Positions 13,690-64,000 of a stretch of DNA of 64,000 bases are shown piece by piece. The position numbers and the translations under genes are program-made. Location of the stretch: NCBI GenBank assembly GCA_011109175.1, contig RDEW01000064.1:122221-186220 (forward strand), written 5' to 3'. The stretch's first letter is position 1. Each line of letters starts with the position of its first letter. A model generated the notes under the pieces. The model was not told the origin of the DNA. It saw only the letters and a program-made list of their open reading frames with translations, and ran no database searches. The DNA comes from Dicyema japonicum (Eukaryota > Dicyemida > Rhombozoa > Dicyemidae).

Positions 13690-13985
13690 ATGTCGACAGT
13701 TGTACTTATCTACCCCCTGTCTTTTAGGGCGAAAGAAACCAGTGACTATCAAAAACGTAACTACAAAGAGCTGACGCTCCCAGTGATCTGACAGGTATAT
13801 TTGGTTCTGTGTAAATCTCGGAGGTGGAGCCGTACAAGAGAAGAGGTAACCCGTATTCTGGTTGTCAAGAAAGCATAATGGACATGGTGGAGAGGACGAT
13901 TGTCCAATCTTGTACCGATGCGAATGTAAATCTATATGGTACCCACACTTTAGGCTCGCCAAGTTGACTCGAAGCTTCAATTCCG
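13690..13985 (-). mobile_element. Jockey-like LINE tail with zinc motif (truncated)
   Basis: The 97-codon minus-strand frame carries HRYKIGQSSSPPCPLC followed by a YLFSC segment, the usual C-terminal CPLC....HLF.C motif of jockey-like LINE polymerases, with the histidine replaced by tyrosine. It starts abruptly and has no RT upstream, so it is a short relic lying just beyond the 3' end of ARMC9. Confidence 0.65.
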
Positions 13986-14168
13986 TCGATAATTAGTTTC
14001 CTATGGCTTAGTTAGATATCAAATTTGTGACTCTTGATTATTTGAAGGGTAAAGATCTCCACTCGCCAAGTTGACTCGAAGCTTCAATTCCGTCGATAAT
14101 TAGTTTCCTATGGCTTAGTTAGATATCAAATTTGTGACTCTTGATTATTTGAAGGGTAAAGATCTCCA
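13955..14168. repeat. Exact 107-bp tandem duplication at the ARMC9 3' end
   Basis: ctcgccaagttgactcgaag begins at 13,955 and again at 14,062. The second copy contains the last codons and stop of ARMC9; the first repeats them out of context. Probably an assembly artefact. Confidence 0.9.
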
Positions 14169-16557
14169 CGTTTACCAAAAAAATTAAGCCAGAGACATGC
14201 ACAACTAGATAATTCATAACATAAGTTAGATCTCCAGTACTCATCTGGTGTTCTGGTGATCCTAGGTCTTGCAGCAAACACATCATCATAGTTTCTGCAT
14301 TCACACACAAATCAACTTTATTTTTAGTTTATCCCCCAATCCTATTGGAATAGGTTGCGCAATCTCCTCACTCTTCCTCACCCTCAGTGGAGTAGCCGGT
14401 CTGGCCATGTAAAACTCCCCATTTTCCTTTAGTGGCGATGAGTACTTTTCTGTCAACAACTCTTCCCAACATAGTGGCTCCCTTACAGTCTCATTTTCAT
14501 TGAGGTCAGCTTCCATCACTTCAGGATCGTCCTCACTGTTGTCCGCTTCCTCTTCTTCGTCCGACTTTGGAGACAATTCAGACTCATCTAATCTTCAGTC
14601 ACCCATTTCAGCTTGCAGTCGGCGAAGTATATGATTTATCTGTGCAGCATTTTCAGTCGTACTCTTCTTTAGGAGATCATTGAGCCTCTTCTCCATCTCC
14701 TATAAACTAATAATCCATCATCTAACGATTTTACTCCCAGCCTTCCGGATTCTTTGGTCAGAGAGAAGCGTATATAGGGTTCCGTGTATGTAAGGTTTGA
14801 TCTGCATATTTAGCTCAGTCAACCTCAGAGTTGGGACTTTCCAGTAATCTCAGAAGCACAGACAGGTATTTCTGAGCGTAGGAAACACAGACCTGTCGTC
14901 CAGAGTTTAAGATACAAAGATTCATTAGCAGAGCTAGTCCATACTCCAAGGAATAGTCCGAGAGACTCTCTGAATCTTCCAACCGATCCATGATCCACTG
15001 AATGAGATTCAATTTGATCATTTCTGTTTGAAATTGCCGACTGACAGCTCACACTGAAATCTACCGCAGTGTCAGTTTTTGGATGGCTCCCACCAACTGC
15101 TGCCTAGTTGGACTGTCTCCGGGTTCTTTTTTCATAGCGGATATCATCGATTCCAACAAACTTGGAGAAAGAGTTATTTACTCCCGTCCACGTGCCAGTG
15201 AGCCCAATGAGTTAATTAAACGTGCAAGATTGTCCAATATGACCTCACTGGAGACACTGAGTGATTCGATGATCGTTTTCTGTCTATCAAATGGAAAGGT
15301 ACCCCATATTGGTGTAATTTACTGCACCCGAAGATGTCGTTCGATATAAAACTCTGCAGAACCTCTTTCCTGGTACGTCTATCTGATCTTATCAGTCCCC
15401 AACGAAGAGCTTGAAGGAGAGGGGGTGTCTTTTTTTCATCCCCTTCAGCGATCTTCTGGCGAACCTTTTCGAAGTTTAATTTAATAAAGGCGACGATGTT
15501 CTTCGGTCTCATGTATATCCCCAGCTACCTTACCTTGGTAATATAGCGGGTTTATTAGGTTGTTCCGTGCGATTTGGTCGTAAAGAGGCCCTCCCAGAGA
15601 CGATTCTGCCGGTGGTCTGATTGCTGAACATCCTCTTGGCTATTTCGTCGATATTTTCAGGTGTTAGCTTCTGTAATTATAATTTTTGTACCGACTTTCC
15701 GTTCACAGTATCCTCCAAAGCATCGATTAATTCGCTGGCAATATCGATGAGGTTCCTATAGTCCGACTCTAGACTAGTCATTAGCTTGGCTGCTTGGTCT
15801 AGTTTCCTTTCAGTCTCCTTCTTTTGTCGAACGACCTCATCCACTTTGTGCTCAGACTCCACATTCATCTATTTCCTAATTACTCCCAGCATAACCAATA
15901 TGTCATAAAGTTGAGGATTCTTCTGTCCGTAAATCTTGCTTATAAATTTCTTCAATTTGCCTATTAGACTCTTCTTCCATTCTTCAGTGAAGATGTTTTT
16001 GAAGGCTCGATGAGTGGTAGAGTTTTTGATACACACGAAAGCACAGTACGGAAAGAAGTCGTTCGATTGACTCAGTTCTGAGCCTTCTGTCTCCAAAAAC
16101 TGCTTAAAACTGTTCATTCGATGAAAGTTCTCGTCATAATCGAACTGGGAGTTAGAATTTGGTTTACGTCGGTGGTCTCTCGGTAGGTGTAGGTGGCGAA
16201 GAATATTTCCAGGTAGAACCTCATCTTATCTTTTGTTTCCTTGTCGTTCTTGGTGGTCAAATGAGAAAAATGTTGATCCCACAGCAAAATGAATTTGCCA
16301 CGACCCCCGTTTTTTATGAGGTTTAACAACTTTGACTAAATTGTTGCTAAAATTTACTTGAATTTCTGATGTGATTATTCTTGATTCTGGCATGGCTCTG
16401 TTCGTGCTTTCCTGTTCGAACTCCATCCTGAGATCCTCATATCCCATAAATTTCAAATACTGCTTTGTAATTATAATATGACCTCGGTTACTAACTGTCG
16501 TGCAAGACGGGGGACATCCGGTCGTCCTTTATTAGGATTGGGCAAATAATCAGACAT
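14126..16557 (-). CDS. ARMC9: ARMC9 (LisH/armadillo ciliary protein), 14 exons with 15-27 nt introns
   Basis: ARMC9 acts at the ciliary base in a Joubert-syndrome module. From ATG 16,557, removing 13 GT..AG introns gives one frame of 715 codons to TGA at 14,128-14,126. Introns: 16,482-16,460; 16,357-16,336; 16,167-16,145; 15,883-15,869; 15,691-15,671; 15,533-15,508; 15,302-15,280; 15,181-15,161; 15,064-15,041; 14,823-14,802; 14,726-14,700; 14,602-14,588; 14,316-14,295. Landmarks match vertebrate ARMC9 in order: LVTEYLKFMGYEDL (LisH), FYLEIFFATYTY, FLETEGSELSQ, DYRNLIDIASELIDALEDTV, LLQALRWGLIRS, LARLINSLGSLARG, SDYSLEYGLALLMNLC, an acidic stretch with VMEADL, and FAARPRITRTPDEYW near the end. 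Intron 4 could instead be 27 nt (15,895-15,869). Orthology is strong; exact joins are inferred from homology and splice dinucleotides. Confidence 0.95.
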
Positions 16558-29060: not shown

Positions 29061-30030
29061 TGATTAAATACTTCTGTCCGTAGAGGCAAGAATGGTATAG
29101 TGGCATAGGAGAGGATCAGACAGTTTTAATTAAAAGTTTATTAACATAAAAATAAAACTGCAATAAATTAGAGAATGCGACGAGAATTGGTAATTGAATT
29201 ATGATTCACTAAAAACAATTATAAATTATAAAACTTAAATACACTTATTTATAGTTTTTTGCATAAATTATCAATATCTCGTCAAATCGTTGACAACGTC
29301 ACTTGCATTAATATTTTTAAAATTTTACCGTTTGTTGTATTTCATATTATGCAGCGTAGAAAAACTTGTTTCGCATAAATTTTTCGTTGAAAATTGTAAA
29401 ATAATAGACAGTCTTTGTGTAGATAATCTGGGATATATGTTACTAACATATATTCAGAATTCTCCAATTTTTACTCCAACACTATTGATTTTATGAATCG
29501 ATCATTAAACAGTTCAATAAGTTCTTCAATCTCTTCAACAGATAAGTGTTTTGACTCTGACAGAAAGAATGATTATCAAGTTTTCGCCAATGATATTAGG
29601 TTTCAGTTATTTTACTATCAATTGCTTTGGTATCAATAAAATCACACTTTTAACACATTTGGCACACCTAAAAAATACCATTGTCAAAATCGAACGTGGA
29701 CAACAGTCGCACATTACACACAAGTGATTCTCCTCTCTCAAACTAGCGCCCACGAGGAATGACACAAAACGATCATTTGTCTCACAAAAGCTAGTAATAG
29801 GTGTCTTCTTTCTTTATACAATCTTCCGGGTGTTTTCACGTGATCACGGTTAATCACAAAAGCAAGCACAAATGACACAAAATAAATAAAAATAAATCAG
29901 AGATTTAAACAAGTCAAGTCCCTGTGCTGTGTAGCATCAATTAATCTACTAATATCATCCTTAACTGAATAAGGGATATCCCAAGCACATTAAGAGTACG
30001 CATAAATCTCCTCAACAGCAAATTTATGTT
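29061..30030. other. AT-rich intergenic stretch
   Basis: A 68-codon plus-strand frame at 29,290-29,496 has hydrophobic composition but no recognised family. No convincing gene seen. Confidence 0.4.
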
Positions 30031-30037
30031 CCATACT

Positions 30038-31072
30038 CTACAATAACAAAAATATTACAATGAGCCAAATCCACGTGTTAACATGGCACACCAGAGTGAA
30101 ATTATCTTCCACCAGTTTACTCATCACGACAAAAAATCTCTGCAACACACGATAAGAAGCGGATGGAAGCATAGTCAATGCCACTTGCAAAGCGGAGAGA
30201 TTCTTAGCCAACAAACAGGCCTTAATGACGCACCCACAGGCAGAGGGTATAACCTCCTCAAACACCAGCATTCTATAGTAATTGGCAATAAAGGAGAACA
30301 TAGTCTCAATCATCTCAAAGCTCAGATTAAGGACATCTACAAAATAACCAGTCAATACTACTTTTAATCAACTCCCAATAATTGGCATCCAACAATCGGG
30401 GGAGACTGGTGTCACAGTAATCATTGACTCCTTTAATAACCCCCATTTGTTGGCAATTGTCAATATAATGCATATTGTCCATCATTTTACGTCAATCCAC
30501 TACCTCTTCTATGATATTCAGAGAATTTGTTAGTACTTGATCATCACCTCCCTTCAGTTCCTTCCACAGACTACAATGAGTACATAAAGTACAAGTCCAC
30601 ACAAACGTCCCCATATAATAGCTCAATTTGCCTGGGGGTGAGTACTGCACAGTTAATCTGATTTTTTGTGGGCACGGAGAGTGTCATCATTGAAACTATC
30701 AAATCTTCGGTCTGGTTGCTGAGAGTACTGATATTCCTCTCACATCCGAAACTGGAATATATAAAGAATTTCGCCTGTAGAGAGTATCCCCATCTGAAAA
30801 GGGAGCACAGTAAGATTTATTGACGGGTACTATGATTCCACATTGGAGGTACTTTTCTAGTAGTTTGACCACCTTTGAACTGTGGAATGAGAATTGACTA
30901 AACCGAGGGAATCAACGTCTGTAGAATGGACACTCGAAAATCATAAAGTGATGGAGATGGTGAACAGCATCATTCCCATTAAAACAGTTTAAATAGATCT
31001 TCCATTTGCTCCTGTATATTCTCAGCGGTAGTGTTGTCTTTAGTTTTGCCACCAATGACAATCACTATGCTT
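30038..31072 (-). CDS. DEPDC1: DEPDC1-like protein (DEP domain plus RhoGAP-like domain), partial
   Basis: Recognised from the ordered resemblance to animal DEPDC1, a mitotic/cortical regulator. From about 31,060 the minus strand encodes LVAKLKTTLPLRIYRSKWK, NCFNGNDAVHHLHHF and, after an in-frame TGA at 30,914-30,912, SSKVVKLLEKYLQCGIIVPV and PFSDGDTLYR (DEP domain). After short introns at 30,728-30,712 (17 nt) and 30,592-30,571 (22 nt) come TPRQIELLYGDVCVDFLWKE, IIEEVVD, MGVIKGVNDYCDTSLPRLLD, a 22-nt intron (30,358-30,337), and the RhoGAP-like helices MIETMFSFIANYYRML, LSALQVALTMLPSASYRVLQ and VVMSKLVEDN. A second in-frame TGA lies near 30,521. The start codon and the C-terminal third are not visible. 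Two disabling stops mean it is either a pseudogene or error-bearing sequence. Confidence 0.72.
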
Positions 31073-43124: not shown

Positions 43125-44407
43125 TAATGACGCACCCACAGGGAGAGGGTATAAACTCCTCAAACACCAGCATTCTATATTAATTGGCAATAAAGGAGAA
43201 CATAGTCTCAATCATCTCACAGCTCAGATTACGGACATCTACAAATAACCAGTCAATACTACTTTTAACCAACTCCCAATAATTGGCATCCAACAATCGG
43301 GGGAGACTGGTGTCACAGTAATCATTGACTCCTTTAATAACCCCCATTTGTTAGCAATTATCAATATAATGCATATTGTCCATCATTATACGTCCATCCA
43401 CTACCTCTTCTATGATATTCAGAGAATTTGTTAGTACTTGATCATCACCTCCCTTCAGTTCCTTCCACAGACTACAATGAGTACATAAAGTACAAGTNAG
43501 CAATTATCAATATAATGCNNNNNNNNNNNNNNNNNNNNNNNNNNNNNNNNNNNNNNNNNNNNNNNNNNNNNNNNNNNNNNNNNNNNNNNNNNNNNNNNNN
43601 NNNNNNNNNNNNNNNNNNNNNNNNNNNNNNNNNNNNNNNNNNNNNNNNNNNNNNNNNNNNNNNNNNNNNNNNNNNNNNNNNNNNNNNNNNNNNNNNNNNN
43701 NNNNNNNNNNNNNNNNNNNNNNNNNNNNNNNNNNNNNNNNNNNNNNNNNNNNNNNNNNNNNNNNNNNNNNNNNNNNNNNNNNNNNNNNNNNNNNNNNNNN
43801 NNNNNNNNNNNNNNNNNNNNNNNNNNNNNNNNNNNNNNNNNNNNNNNNNNNNNNNATCTCTGCAACACACGATAAGAAGCGGATGGAAGCATAGTCAATG
43901 CCACTTGCAAAGCGGAGAGATTCTTAGCCAACAAACAGGCCTTAATGACGCACCCACAGAAAGAGGGTATAACCTCCTCAAACACCAGCATTCTATAGTA
44001 ATTGGCAATAAAGGAGAACATAGTCTCAATCATCTCACAGCTCAGATTACGGACATCTACAAAATAACCAGTCAATACTACTTTTAACCAACTCCCAATA
44101 ATTGGCATCCAACAATCGGGGGAGACTGGTGTCACAGTAATCATTGATTCCATTAATAACCTTCATTTGTTGGCAATTGTCAATATAATGCAATTGTCCA
44201 TCATTATAAGCCAATCCAGTACCTCTTCTATGATATTCAGAGAATTTGTTAGTACTTGATCATCACCTCCCTTCAGTTCCTTCCACAGACTACAATGAGT
44301 ACATAAAGTACAAATCCACACAAACGTCCCCATATAATATCTCAATTTGCCTGGGGGTGAGTAATGCACTGTTAATCTGGTTTTTTGTGGGCACGGAGAG
44401 TGTCATC
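43125..44407 (-). pseudogene. Duplicate DEPDC1-like fragment split by an assembly gap
   Basis: 43,125-43,497 and 43,857-44,407 are both near-identical to parts of 30,170-30,690 (minus strand), with the run of n at 43,519-43,855 between them. They encode the same WKELKGGDDQVLTNSLNIIE and FSFIANYYRMLVFEEVIPS segments. Each copy is broken differently: at 43.36 kb a CAA codon has become TAA (NC-stop-QMG); at 44.2 kb bases are missing around the intron and the frame shifts. Similarity to the 30 kb locus stops at 44,408, within the segment before TPRQIELL. This is a segmental copy lacking the DEP domain, or collapsed haplotypes. Confidence 0.7.
43498..43855. other. Assembly gap
   Basis: A single n at 43,498 and a run of n from 43,519 to 43,855, flanked by overlapping DEPDC1-like contig ends. 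Open frames crossing the gap are artefacts. Confidence 0.98.
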
Positions 44408-45399
44408 AAATTTTTTTCAACTTCAGAATCAGCCGTGTCACCGTATTCTGCATCCCATATCTTTCTTCCATCTGAGGAACCCCATATCTGCTCAAAACAT
44501 AACCACGTGCTTTGCGGTGGTCCTCATTTTTCGAGAACGCAACAGTTCCGTAATCGAACGACCTACAAACGTTCAATTGGACCAAACAACTCTAACTGTT
44601 CTTATCTTCTCCGAACTCAAATAAAGTCTGATCCTTTACTTTCCAACTGAATTATTAACAAGTGACACGAAGTATTTAGAAGGTCGATCGCTAGAGCAGA
44701 AATACAATCATTTTGAAAAGATCATTTTGAAAGACAATTGAAAAGGTCGAATCGACTCCGGCTTACGGATCAATACCCTTATCGGAAATAATGAAACAAG
44801 CCTCGACGAGAGACAGTCTGCATCTGGAATTCTACCCGACTAGGATTGAAAAAAATCGAGCTCACCTTTGAACCCGTCGTTATATACGAATACCACACAA
44901 ACGATGCTGTGTCTAAGAACACTCGGTTGGATAACACTCGGTCAGAAGCTTTCAAAATATGAGAGTCGGCTAACTTCAAAACAATTTGAATCCCCTACAG
45001 TGGGACAAAATAATAAACGTTATCCTAAGAACTACCAGAATAATCACCTCTGAGTGTCAAAAAAACAAAATCCCCATTTTAACAAATTTCTGCGGATTCT
45101 TAATGATTTGTTCATTAGAGGAATAAAGCGTAAAATTCGCGCAAAGTCATCAACTCAAGCTAGCATGTGATTTACACAAAAAACCACCAAATCGATTTTT
45201 ATTTCGTTTTTATTTAATAAATTATTTGTCTCAGTCCATACATGCGAGACGCCGTACATTCGAGATTCATCACAAAATACAAAAGAAAAATTTTCTTAGT
45301 AAAACTTTAATTGGAAAAAATTATTAATAATATCAAATTACATATAGTACATATTTTATTTAAAATAATAATTTATAAAACATGTATCTAGTGAACCTA
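44408..45399. other. No confident gene
   Basis: Minus-strand pieces such as RSFDYGTVAFSKNEDHRKAR and YVLSRYGVPQMEERYGMQN (44,400-44,580) look protein-like, possibly from a LINE post-RT region, but I cannot place them. 44,779-44,979 (-) is a 66-codon frame of unknown nature. 45,060-45,400 is AT-rich. Confidence 0.3.
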
Positions 45400-50638: not shown

Positions 50639-50849
50639 ATGTTCAGTCTTGTCCTTCTCTCAGTTTTATCAGTCTCGACTATTCTCGCAGAGAAATGTTG
50701 TGTTTGAGATGAATTTGGACTGTTTTAACGAAAAGTGCTACGCTTTCATAAAACAGTGCCAAAACTATAAAAACGGTAAAAAAATTTGTAGGAAAATGGG
50801 GGGAGATTTGGCCAACGTCAACAGCAAGGAGACTCAAAAGTACATTTTT
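50610..50849 (+). pseudogene. Truncated first copy of the lectin gene (before n at 50,850)
   Basis: 50,610-50,849 is repeated almost exactly at 50,851-51,090. It contains the start ATG (50,639), signal peptide, first intron and the first half of the lectin domain. Its only noted difference is in the first intron, which ends ttgg instead of ttag (50,717-50,718), destroying the acceptor. Most likely an unmerged contig end carrying a sequence error or allele. Confidence 0.8.
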
Positions 50850-50879
50850 NATATATTTGTGGAAAGGACAAGAAGACTA

Positions 50880-51399
50880 ATGTTCAGTCTTGTCCTTCTC
50901 TCAGTTTTATCAGTCTCGACTATTCTCGCAGAGAAATGTTGTGTTTGAGATGAATTTAGACTGTTTTAACGAAAAGTGCTACGCTTTCATAAAACAGTGC
51001 CAAAACTATAAAAACGGTAAAAAAATTTGTAGGAAAATGGGGGGAGATTTGGCCAACGTCAACAGCAAGGAGACTCAAAAGTACATTTTTGGTGAGCTGA
51101 GTGATTTTTATTGTGTAGAGACAATTTTGAAGAAGTATAAGAAGTCATTTTACATTGGGGTTAACGATATCGCTGAGGAAGGGAAATTCGTTGTTTCTTT
51201 GGGAGACGATCTAGTAAATCGATAGATAACATAGAAATCCTCCAATTGGATAAAAAGAGAGCCAAACAATTATGGGAATGAAGACTGTACCGTCATTACT
51301 AATCATTGTGGACGCTGGAATGATATAAGTTGCGGCAGAAAACGACCCATTCTCAGTGAAATTAATGATATTCTTCTTGGCGGTACAATTTGGCATTAA
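50880..51399 (+). CDS. Secreted C-type lectin with EPN and WND motifs
   Basis: ATG 50,880; a signal peptide MFSLVLLSVLSVSTILA precedes EKC. Two short introns, 50,941-50,959 (19 nt, GTGTTT..TTTAG) and 51,214-51,234 (21 nt, GTAAAT..CATAG), join three exons into 159 codons ending TAA 51,397-51,399. The protein is a single C-type lectin domain: CFNEKCYAFIKQC, KKICRKMGGDLANVNSKETQ, a FYIGVNDIAEEGKFVVSLGD block (the usual WIGLND..EG.FVWSDG), NWIKREPNNYGNEDCTVI and CGRWNDISC. EPN implies a Ca2+-dependent mannose-type sugar site, and WND supplies further Ca2+ ligands. In a host-associated animal it could act in recognition or attachment; that role is inferred. Confidence 0.92.
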
Positions 51400-62114: not shown

Positions 62115-64000
62115 ACCAGTCGGTTAAAGAAGGCGTCAATTTCTAAGGTAACTGAGGGACCAACCTTTCCGACGGTGCTCTAAAATAAATTAACTACTTA
62201 CTCTGAAGACTCTTAATAGACTCAATCAGCAGTCCGTGCTCTCCCACAGAATTACAGATGTGTACAACCTCTGACTGCAATTGAGCTGCAACTTTCTGAC
62301 ATTATCCCTTACTCTACCATTATCTCATTAAACTGATCCAGCACGTGGGCAAAAACCTTTTCCATCAAGTATTCCATGCCACGTAACCCCATCACCAAAC
62401 ACAATGTCTCCATCTCTACCATTACCACACTCCAACCTTGTCGTGATGTGTATTCCTCCAAGTCGAACACGTGAGCACCCTCATTTGCACACAACCCCAC
62501 GAAACAGTTACAGGAGAACGAGTATATCACTTCCCTCCGAGCCTACGCTTTCAGCAGAAAGTCAACGTACCTAAGTAACCACCACGTAACTACCACGCAG
62601 CCATTCTCTGCTGTAGAGGCGGTAGGTCCCCAATCTCAGTACAGTTCACCCACAGCCCATTATTAAGTGAGTCCATAACACGTGTCCAGCCAACTAAGAA
62701 TAAAAGAACCCCTTACAGACAGCATCCACTTGCACAACCACATTAATGAGGACGGATATCCTCAAGTTCACTTGTGAGGGAAGACACGTGATCATTGCAG
62801 CACTGCTTTGATACGAGCTTTCCTCTATCATTCTTAAGAGGATGGCACTGAGAGCGCTCTCAAACTGCTTTCTGTGATGTTCCGTCGCGAATCTACGGAA
62901 AATCCTTGACAGGGCTGTAATAGACGTCATAAGGTTGGACCTACTGTGACCATAATAACCCACGTGGTCTAAAAATACTCTTTATTGTTAGTTAAAGATA
63001 TCTCAGACTTGCTTTTCGACTGCTTCCCGGATATGTGACCCATCATTCTCTGTCCCAACACTGCGAGATCCAAAGCCTTTATCAACCCACGAGTCACCTG
63101 TTTGTNCTTAAGAGGATGGCACTGAGAGCGCTCTCAAACTGCTTTCTGTGATGTTCCGTCGCGAATCTACGGAAAGTCCTTGACAGGGCTGTAATAGACG
63201 TCATAAGGTTGGACCTACTGTGACCATAATAACCCACGTGGTCTCAAAATACTCTTTATTGTTAGTTAAAGATATCTCAGACTTGCTTTTCGACTGCTTC
63301 CCGGATATGTGACCCATCATTCTCTGTCCCAACACTGCGAGATCCAAAGCCTTTATCAACCCACGAGTCACCTGTTTGTAAACTTCAGCTTAATGTAGTA
63401 GACGTTCTCGATATGCTGAATCAAGGAGAAAACCACGTTCTCCAGAAATTTATCACAGAGACTTTCTGCTATGCTTATCAATGGAAATTTCTTGTGTTAC
63501 CACCAGCTACCTCCTCAGGACAAAGCACGTGGAAGCAGGTTCCTACTCCCTCTGTAAGTCGAAGGTAGCTACCAATGTAGTTGATTCTGCTTATTCTGGA
63601 GAGACACAGGGAGAAGTGGTGCTCTATCAGGTTGGAGGTGTGGCTAAATCACGGAAAAGGCTTACAAATATTTGGAGAGGTCACAGACACGTGCCAGAAA
63701 TTCGGGGTATGCGTTAACAGCCATGTTTATGGAGGAAAGGTCTGACAGGAGAGCTGGTACAGGGATCCCCTTTAAGGTGCAAATCCCCTGAGCCATAGAC
63801 AAAACATACTCGCAGTCATCTACATGTCCCTCACGGAATGCCGTCTCCAGTCGTACGCAGATGTCCAGTCCACATGGAGTTGACAAAGTCTGGACCTTTC
63901 CGAGCAAATATTCCAAATGTGCTTTGGCCTGACCCATCAGTTCGGTTTTTCTAATCAAGCACGTGTCATGTAGTTGTCCCACCATGTGCACTAGGGCAAT
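62115..64000 (-). CDS. NCKAP1: NCKAP1 (Nap1/HEM, WAVE complex subunit), central part, many tiny introns
   Basis: NCKAP1 is a scaffold of the WAVE complex that links Rac to Arp2/3 actin nucleation. The reading enters from the right edge (IALVHMVGQLHDTCLI, AHLEYLLGKVQTL) and follows the animal protein in order: RINYIGSYLRLTEG, CFHVLCPEE, ESLCDKFLENVV, a KQSKSKSE basic stretch, RSNLMTSITALSRIFRRF, MAAWYVDFLLKA, FVGLCANEGAHVFDLEEYTS, EMETLCLVMGLRGMEYL, HVLDQFNEIM, EIDAFFNRL. Introns read at 63,665-63,644; 63,500-63,469; 63,403-63,372; about 35 nt near 62,975; 62,716-62,694; 62,593-62,571; 62,436-62,416; 62,317-62,296; 62,201-62,180; 62,164-62,143. An in-frame TAG lies at 62,545-62,543. A 273-bp duplication around n (63,106) repeats one exon. 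N-terminus is outside the window; C-terminus unresolved. Confidence 0.9.
62833..63379. repeat. 273-bp duplication around a single n (63,106) inside NCKAP1
   Basis: 62,833-63,105 recurs at 63,107-63,379 with about two substitutions (ggaaaatcct/ggaaagtcct, gtctaaaaat/gtctcaaaat). Both copies carry the same NCKAP1 exon, which is single in the protein family, so this is an assembly duplication rather than a gene feature. Confidence 0.92.

Follow-up and report, generated by a model that had tools for sequence, protein, structure and literature searches.

Ultra-short introns are already known from dicyemids, minute parasites of octopus and squid. In the excerpts of the literature considered here, published accounts go back to 2007 (PMC2222250), with lengths of 26.2 ± 1.9 nt for 16 dicyemid introns (PMC2222250), a median of 25 nt for Dicyema acuticephalum (mean 24.93, SD 2.51, n = 41; PMC2483917), a median of 27 nt for Dicyema sp. 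(PMC6543705) and a mean of 38.2 nt in the annotation of Dicyema japonicum (PMC6736024). For D. acuticephalum, the excerpted text describes a 5′ boundary of 0.5 bits, weaker than any other known, and introns devoid of a branch signature (PMC2483917). The same excerpts describe short introns in other lineages. In Paramecium, more than 95% of the introns measure 20–34 nt and selection acts against retained introns that can be translated (PMC11334263). Stentor coeruleus possesses GT-AG introns of 15–16 nt with a weak branch consensus and a nearly fixed branch position, and retains SF1 and U2AF (PMC9505925). The nucleomorph of Bigelowiella natans, a reduced endosymbiont nucleus, contains tiny and densely spaced introns of 18–21 nt with donors that are largely GT(A) (PMC2222250, PMC2483917).

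The introns analyzed here resemble the published dicyemid introns in their length, their very weak 5′ boundary, the lack of a clear branch motif, their density and their conserved positions. They share the length range and the scarcity of translatable retained introns with Paramecium, the GT-AG borders, weak branch consensus and retained SF1 and U2AF with Stentor, and the dense, tiny, largely GT(A)-type introns with the nucleomorph of B. natans, while differing from the latter in length and in not belonging to a reduced endosymbiont nucleus. The best supported reading is that an animal of the dicyemid type carries spliceosomal introns of extremely small size. Judged from the sequence, we assign a probability of roughly 0.92 to the pieces being ordinary major-type (U2-dependent) spliceosomal introns of ~20–27 nt in a dicyemid nuclear genome. 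A preliminary description of this DNA had stated that tiny introns are known from Dicyemida, which agrees with published lengths of about 25 nt in the excerpts considered (PMC2483917, PMC2222250).

The window, by which we mean the whole analyzed stretch of 64,000 nucleotides (C153:122221-186220), is part of a genome of 64,672,829 bases in 191 contigs. On its minus strand, a homolog of the cilia gene ARMC9 extends from an ATG at 16557 to a stop codon ending at 14126 and comprises 14 exons with 706–717 codons, depending on how ambiguous joins are placed. Whereas the preliminary description invoked vertebrate ARMC9, the match was judged here on Pfam profiles and on a single protein of metagenomic origin (P0001); P0001 was the sole ARMC9 relative obtained from a protein-collection search with ~8,000 candidates scored per search, and a PDB search with the ARMC9 protein gave no useful match. 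The spliced protein matches ARMC9_ARM with 129.5 bits (E 8.7e-38, residues 448–566 to profile positions 1–119) and CTLH_Armc9 with 96.2 bits (E 2.6e-27, residues 58–188 to positions 3–133), both over equal lengths and above the family cut-offs, and these scores confirm the proposed ARMC9 gene at 14126..16557. The domains follow the expected order of LisH, CTLH-like and ARM, with the ARMC9_LisH match (19.2 bits with a revised intron 1) lying below its family cut-off of 27.3. A single unspliced open frame yields 77.7 bits for ARMC9_ARM and covers profile positions 1–67 of 120; since this is only about half of the profile, the joins contribute real signal.

Thirteen is the minimum number of GT-AG introns of 15–30 nt that opens the ARMC9 frame. 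Under this rule, neither the 200 dinucleotide shuffles nor the 135 other stretches of the window, taken on a random strand, included a single sequence that could be read from end to end with any number of such introns, and the opposite strand of the gene is readable for at most 90 bases. The opening of the ARMC9 frame by short introns is not a product of chance. As far as sequence comparison can tell, ARMC9 does contain short introns and was for the most part read correctly, and the phenomenon is one that is already known. A frame-keeping alternative nearby is absent for introns 7 and 8 only, some of the alternatives at the other joins being possible only with an intron of 10 nt or a donor of the GC type. 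The codon totals amount to 716 in the first reading, 706 in another and 712 in the revised model. The preliminary description had emphasized that the exons sum to exactly 716 codons; such a reading exists, yet because several frame-keeping choices of joins are available, it is one of several possible sums and verifies nothing.

Support for the individual joins, all on the minus strand, is of different kinds. Introns 2 (22 nt, 16336-16357) and 3 (23 nt, 16145-16167) fall within the equal-length match to CTLH_Armc9, as do introns 10 (22 nt, 14802-14823) and 11 (27 nt, 14700-14726) within that to ARMC9_ARM, and the alignment to P0001 is gap-free over the join of intron 9 (24 nt, 15041-15064). Intron 1 (16482-16460) had been given a length of 20 nt; at 23 nt, the gap in the ARMC9_LisH alignment disappears and the score increases from 11.6 to 19.2 bits (residues 22–42 to profile positions 7–27, equal length), so that the longer form is to be preferred. 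For introns 5 (21 nt, 15671-15691; splice score 1.07 versus -1.54 for an in-frame 24-nt version) and 13 (22 nt, 14295-14316; no domain match over the join), the support consists of frame and splice profile. Intron 6 (26 nt, 15508-15533) is the sole GT-AG choice found, with two GC-donor choices also in frame, and introns 7 (23 nt, 15280-15302) and 8 (21 nt, 15161-15181) are the sole choices found at their sites. P0001 carries seven more residues exactly at intron 8, which reads E*ITLSPS if kept; the join could be wrong, and a loss of seven codons or an in-frame stop may be present instead of an intron. Intron 4 can be read with 27 nt (15883-15857) or 15 nt (15883-15869) from the same donor, both in frame and with splice scores of -1.84 and -1.53, respectively. 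Intron 12 (14588-14602) was read as a 15-nt GT-AG intron and has as rivals a GC-AG intron of 24 or 30 nt, a base error and a nonsense change; if GT-AG introns are restricted to 19–30 nt, the ARMC9 reading breaks at this site. When scored against the splice profile of the dynein and CCT genes described below, the introns of the revised model come out low, 12 of the 13 being under the median and five not exceeding the 5th percentile, which counts against the favored reading. The last part of the ARMC9 reading sits in a 107-base unit that is repeated head to tail without difference (window 13955-14169), which casts doubt on where the gene truly ends on its 3′ side. Outside the window, a stretch of 94 bases on the same contig, ~89 kb away (C153:47018-47111), is 89% identical to positions 847–940 of the ARMC9 query and by its coordinates spans intron 5; it represents a partial copy or a pseudogene piece.

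A plain codon-usage gene finder was rejected, since the bias in codon usage is weak and little was found with it in the window besides ARMC9; a wider view of the introns required alignment guided by profiles. CCT and dynein AAA_6 genes were each aligned leave-one-out to a profile of their own paralogs, with GT/GC-AG introns of 10–120 nt admitted at one fixed cost, GC donors being dearer and no length preference being applied in the final step; the paralog proteins behind the profiles had first been predicted with a mild preference for 20–27 nt. This covered 20 genes on 17 contigs, namely eight of the nine CCT/Hsp60 loci (the Hsp60-like locus on C115 was left out) and 12 of the 13 dynein loci (C83 was left out). 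A junction was retained if at least eight gap-free aligned residues flanked it on either side, and 191 of 240 passed this filter; the 49 others, 14 of them shorter than 20 nt, were dropped for a gap, an insertion or a stop near the join. The filtered junctions have a median of 24 nt and a mode of 23 nt (48 introns), slightly shorter than the introns reported in the excerpt on D. acuticephalum, and 179 of them fall between 20 and 30 nt, with seven longer and five shorter.

The five short junctions measure 11, 14, 15, 16 and 17 nt, and inspection by hand left no secure intron below 20 nt in the filtered set. Readings of 23 and 25 nt are available for the 11-nt and the 16-nt junction, respectively, the 14-nt junction lies in a poorly aligned stretch and the 15-nt junction in a gene with in-frame stops; for the 17-nt junction a 23-nt reading exists, yet the shorter form fits the paralog length equally well or better. 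Only two of the 191 junctions thus measure 15–16 nt, neither of them secure, and no peak of the kind described for Stentor, where 15–16 nt is the reported intron length, is seen here. All junctions end in AG and begin with GT (183) or GC (8; 4% GC-AG), these being the only borders that the search admitted; that the alignments close at such borders, with GT outnumbering GC, lends support to U2-type borders. Five of the eight GC-donor introns show CAG at the exon end followed by GCAT, as if strong exon pairing offset the weak donor. Among the 177 mapped dynein introns (unfiltered), 56 share position and phase with an intron of a paralog, as would be anticipated if ancient introns had been reduced in size. 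One dynein heavy chain gene (C68:63628-67755) contains three in-frame stops outside of its introns in the guided alignment and is possibly a pseudogene.

The number of thirteen introns in ARMC9, given as 15–27 nt long in the preliminary description, is upheld as the frame-opening minimum, whereas the two 15-nt lengths are insecure. By the sequence evidence, intron 4 is more probably a 27-nt intron, and intron 12 more probably a GC-AG intron or the result of a base error. If both were genuine at 15 nt, this animal would splice introns down to the size reported for Stentor; we regard this as unlikely, given that not a single secure junction below 20 nt occurs among the 191 filtered ones, even though no in-frame GT-AG replacement of 19–30 nt exists for intron 12 and a trained splice model still picks 15 nt at both sites. 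A 15-nt candidate in the dynein gene on C146 speaks for genuine introns of this size in that it shares position and phase with the 25-nt intron of a paralog; like introns 4 and 12 of ARMC9, however, it carries an in-frame stop if kept, so that three of the four 15-nt candidates resemble a nonsense change, and the fourth, in the dynein gene on C68, is free of in-frame stops but resides in a gene with stops elsewhere. Retention of intron 12 would also bring the protein near the length of P0001 by hand count. The 15-nt introns are doubtful, too, because the assembly appears to hold one-base slips, as suggested by a frame change in a Pax gene and by frame slips noted by eye in dynein genes. The more restricted proposal that 15 nt is the true length of intron 12, and perhaps of intron 4, so that U1 and the branch machinery of an animal spliceosome share this short stretch in rare exceptions below a general floor of 20–21 nt, seems rather improbable to us. 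It is likewise improbable that ARMC9 is a decaying copy with a few nonsense changes in which introns 4, 8 and 12 represent stop codons in former coding sequence. All three have lengths that are multiples of three and an in-frame stop if kept, their retention fits the length of P0001 about equally well or better (hand count), and the splice signals in ARMC9 are weak, but a DNA search of the genome revealed no second full ARMC9 gene, only the 94-base piece and a 44-base repeat, the frame is open over ~710 codons where 200 shuffles were unreadable, and the 21 nt of intron 8 are ordinary for this genome. As to the slips themselves, the Pax paired domain at C13:1407728-1408116 shows a frame change without a plausible intron, which may reflect either a discrepancy of a single base in the assembly or a genuine frameshift, and several dynein ‘introns’ of 10–17 nt resemble one-base frame slips by eye.

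The splice signals were analyzed on the 179 introns of 20–30 nt. Measured against the base composition of introns, the information at the donor amounts to 0.39, 0.44 and 0.58 bits at exon positions -3 to -1, plus the GT, and to 0.14 bits at +3 and 0.01, 0.00 and 0.03 bits at +4 to +6. The match to AAGT at +3 to +6 averages 1.44 of 4 versus 1.18 in shuffles (z 3.8; 171 GT introns), a slight excess to which the A at +3 (49%) contributes most. The pattern YTRAY occurs in 57 of the 179 introns versus 38.9 ± 5.0 in shuffles, with its A mostly at -7 to -11; since fourteen patterns were tried, this loose motif is only suggestive as a branch signal. The CTAAC motif singled out in intron 3 (16167-16145) is indeed present with its A at -8, but CTAAC was rejected as a general branch motif, being found in one of the 179 introns with 1.6 expected.

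Parts of the machinery that introns of this type would need were identified in the genome. U2 RNA is canonical (155.1 bits; 25 matches, 22 of them above the cut-off) and keeps GTAGTA in all five copies read, and U6 RNA (107.8 bits) carries ACAGAGA in both copies read of its 10 matches. The best U1 RNA scores 69.0 bits, just below the Rfam cut-off of 69.5, as all 11 matches are below it; seven of the eight copies read have the 5′ end ACUUACCUGG and one has ACUUACUUGG, such that a divergent U1 body accompanies a 5′ end that is canonical in seven of eight copies. SF1 is present, its gene model containing nine introns of 22–25 nt that were not obtained in a length-neutral manner, U2AF65-like exons cluster at C114:219969-221071, each of them under the whole-protein cut-off, and the zinc-binding domain of UPF1 is found as well. 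The presence of these RNAs and factors implies that the tiny introns are not tied to their loss. We infer a mechanism in which U1 would chiefly recognize the exon end (AG preceding GT) together with a weak A at +3, while a loosely defined A ~7–11 nt before the intron end would act as branch point. As the introns are too short to hold U1 and SF1/U2AF/U2 together, these would bind sequentially rather than side by side. Splicing would be leaky, with nonsense-mediated decay (NMD) clearing those transcripts in which an intron persists.

Both the nature of the pieces and the source of the DNA could in principle be different. Short sequences that ciliates eliminate from their DNA are similar in length to these pieces, which would then be removed from DNA and not from RNA. 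We give this idea next to no credence, since 183 of the 191 junctions begin with GT and eight with GC (in a search that admitted only these starts and AG ends), an exon AG precedes the donor, U1, U2 and U6 genes are present, and the Pax domains point to an animal and not a ciliate. Four PAX loci were found in the genome and indicate an animal; the family also matched one of 14 prokaryote controls, below the cut-off. The Pax gene on C13, Pax6-like by its motifs, scores 99.2 bits for PAX, and its homeodomain (residues 64–119 to positions 2–57) matches over equal length across two introns of 23 and 25 nt. Their phases, 1 and 0, are those given for Dicyema Pax6 in the excerpt consulted (PMC2222250), at positions that are common to many animals. 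The GC content is 37.1% in the window and 38.7% in the loci examined, and the genome size of 64.7 Mb compares with 67.5 Mb and 36.7% GC stated for D. japonicum (PMC6736024, in excerpt). Another animal with independently shrunk introns is therefore a very improbable source: size and GC content fit D. japonicum, introns of ~25 nt in animals are reported for dicyemids only in the literature compared, and the orthonectid Intoshia linei has a median intron of 57 nt according to the excerpt (PMC6543705). The assignment to the dicyemids is based on the kind of intron and the statistics of the genome and denotes a fit and not a placement in a tree. The earlier suggestion of a dicyemid genome with short introns is supported by the median of 24 nt, which matches published dicyemids, with the lower end of 15 nt unproven.

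Introns of the same kind are modeled in two other genes of the window. NCKAP1 (62197-64000, minus strand), cut by the window edge, has 10 introns of 20–38 nt in its spliced model and matches Pfam Nckap1 with 56.7 bits, the best stretch pairing residues 94–190 with positions 522–618 over equal length; a PDB search with this piece brought up no more than weak similarity to a protein that is not related to it. A C-type lectin gene model (50688-51393, plus strand) has a 21-nt intron at 51214-51234; an unspliced piece scores 32.9 bits for Lectin_C, and the later part, when spliced, 63.3 bits (111 residues to 102 positions, not gap-free). Both splice models were built with an intron-length preference. 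The claim of similar introns elsewhere in the window is supported for these two genes, but DEPDC1, also listed with them though without coordinates, was not found among the eight window pieces scanned, which covered a minority of the window's open frames. Within the NCKAP1 model, the same stretch of ~40 residues occurs twice, which suggests that the gene is internally duplicated or that the assembly is at fault here, and a portion of the lectin gene is tandemly repeated ~240 bases apart (window 50640-51222). Similar sequence is further found on the minus strand at window 30000-30900 and 43400-44650, beside 337 consecutive N (43519-43855).

With the dynein and CCT junctions, a dicyemid-like genome assembled in long contigs yields a set of tiny introns that were checked by homology and have a lower limit near 20 nt, and gene finders that expect longer introns would fragment genes in such genomes. 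The set opens two matters to RNA testing, namely the lower size limit of the introns that an ordinary animal spliceosome is able to excise, and whether the splicing of tiny introns is leaky and policed by NMD. Bearing on the latter, only nine of the 55 introns with a length of 3n would be stop-free if kept, versus 17.0 or 18.4 expected under two null models (P 0.0012 and 0.003), in a small sample and with a choice of test that postdates the collection of the introns. The introns of other lengths served as control and show no shortage, 69 of 124 being stop-free with 68.9 expected. NMD clearance of intron-keeping transcripts would account for the scarcity of stop-free 3n introns, and their shortage hints at NMD-guarded leaky splicing; it is possibly new for dicyemids, as no dicyemid report of it was found in the excerpts of the open-licence literature. 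In Paramecium, a like pattern is attributed in the cited excerpt to selection against retained introns that are invisible to NMD (PMC11334263). While Paramecium avoids 3n lengths according to the same source, such lengths are not rare here (55 of 179) but mostly contain a stop, as expected given three stop codons.
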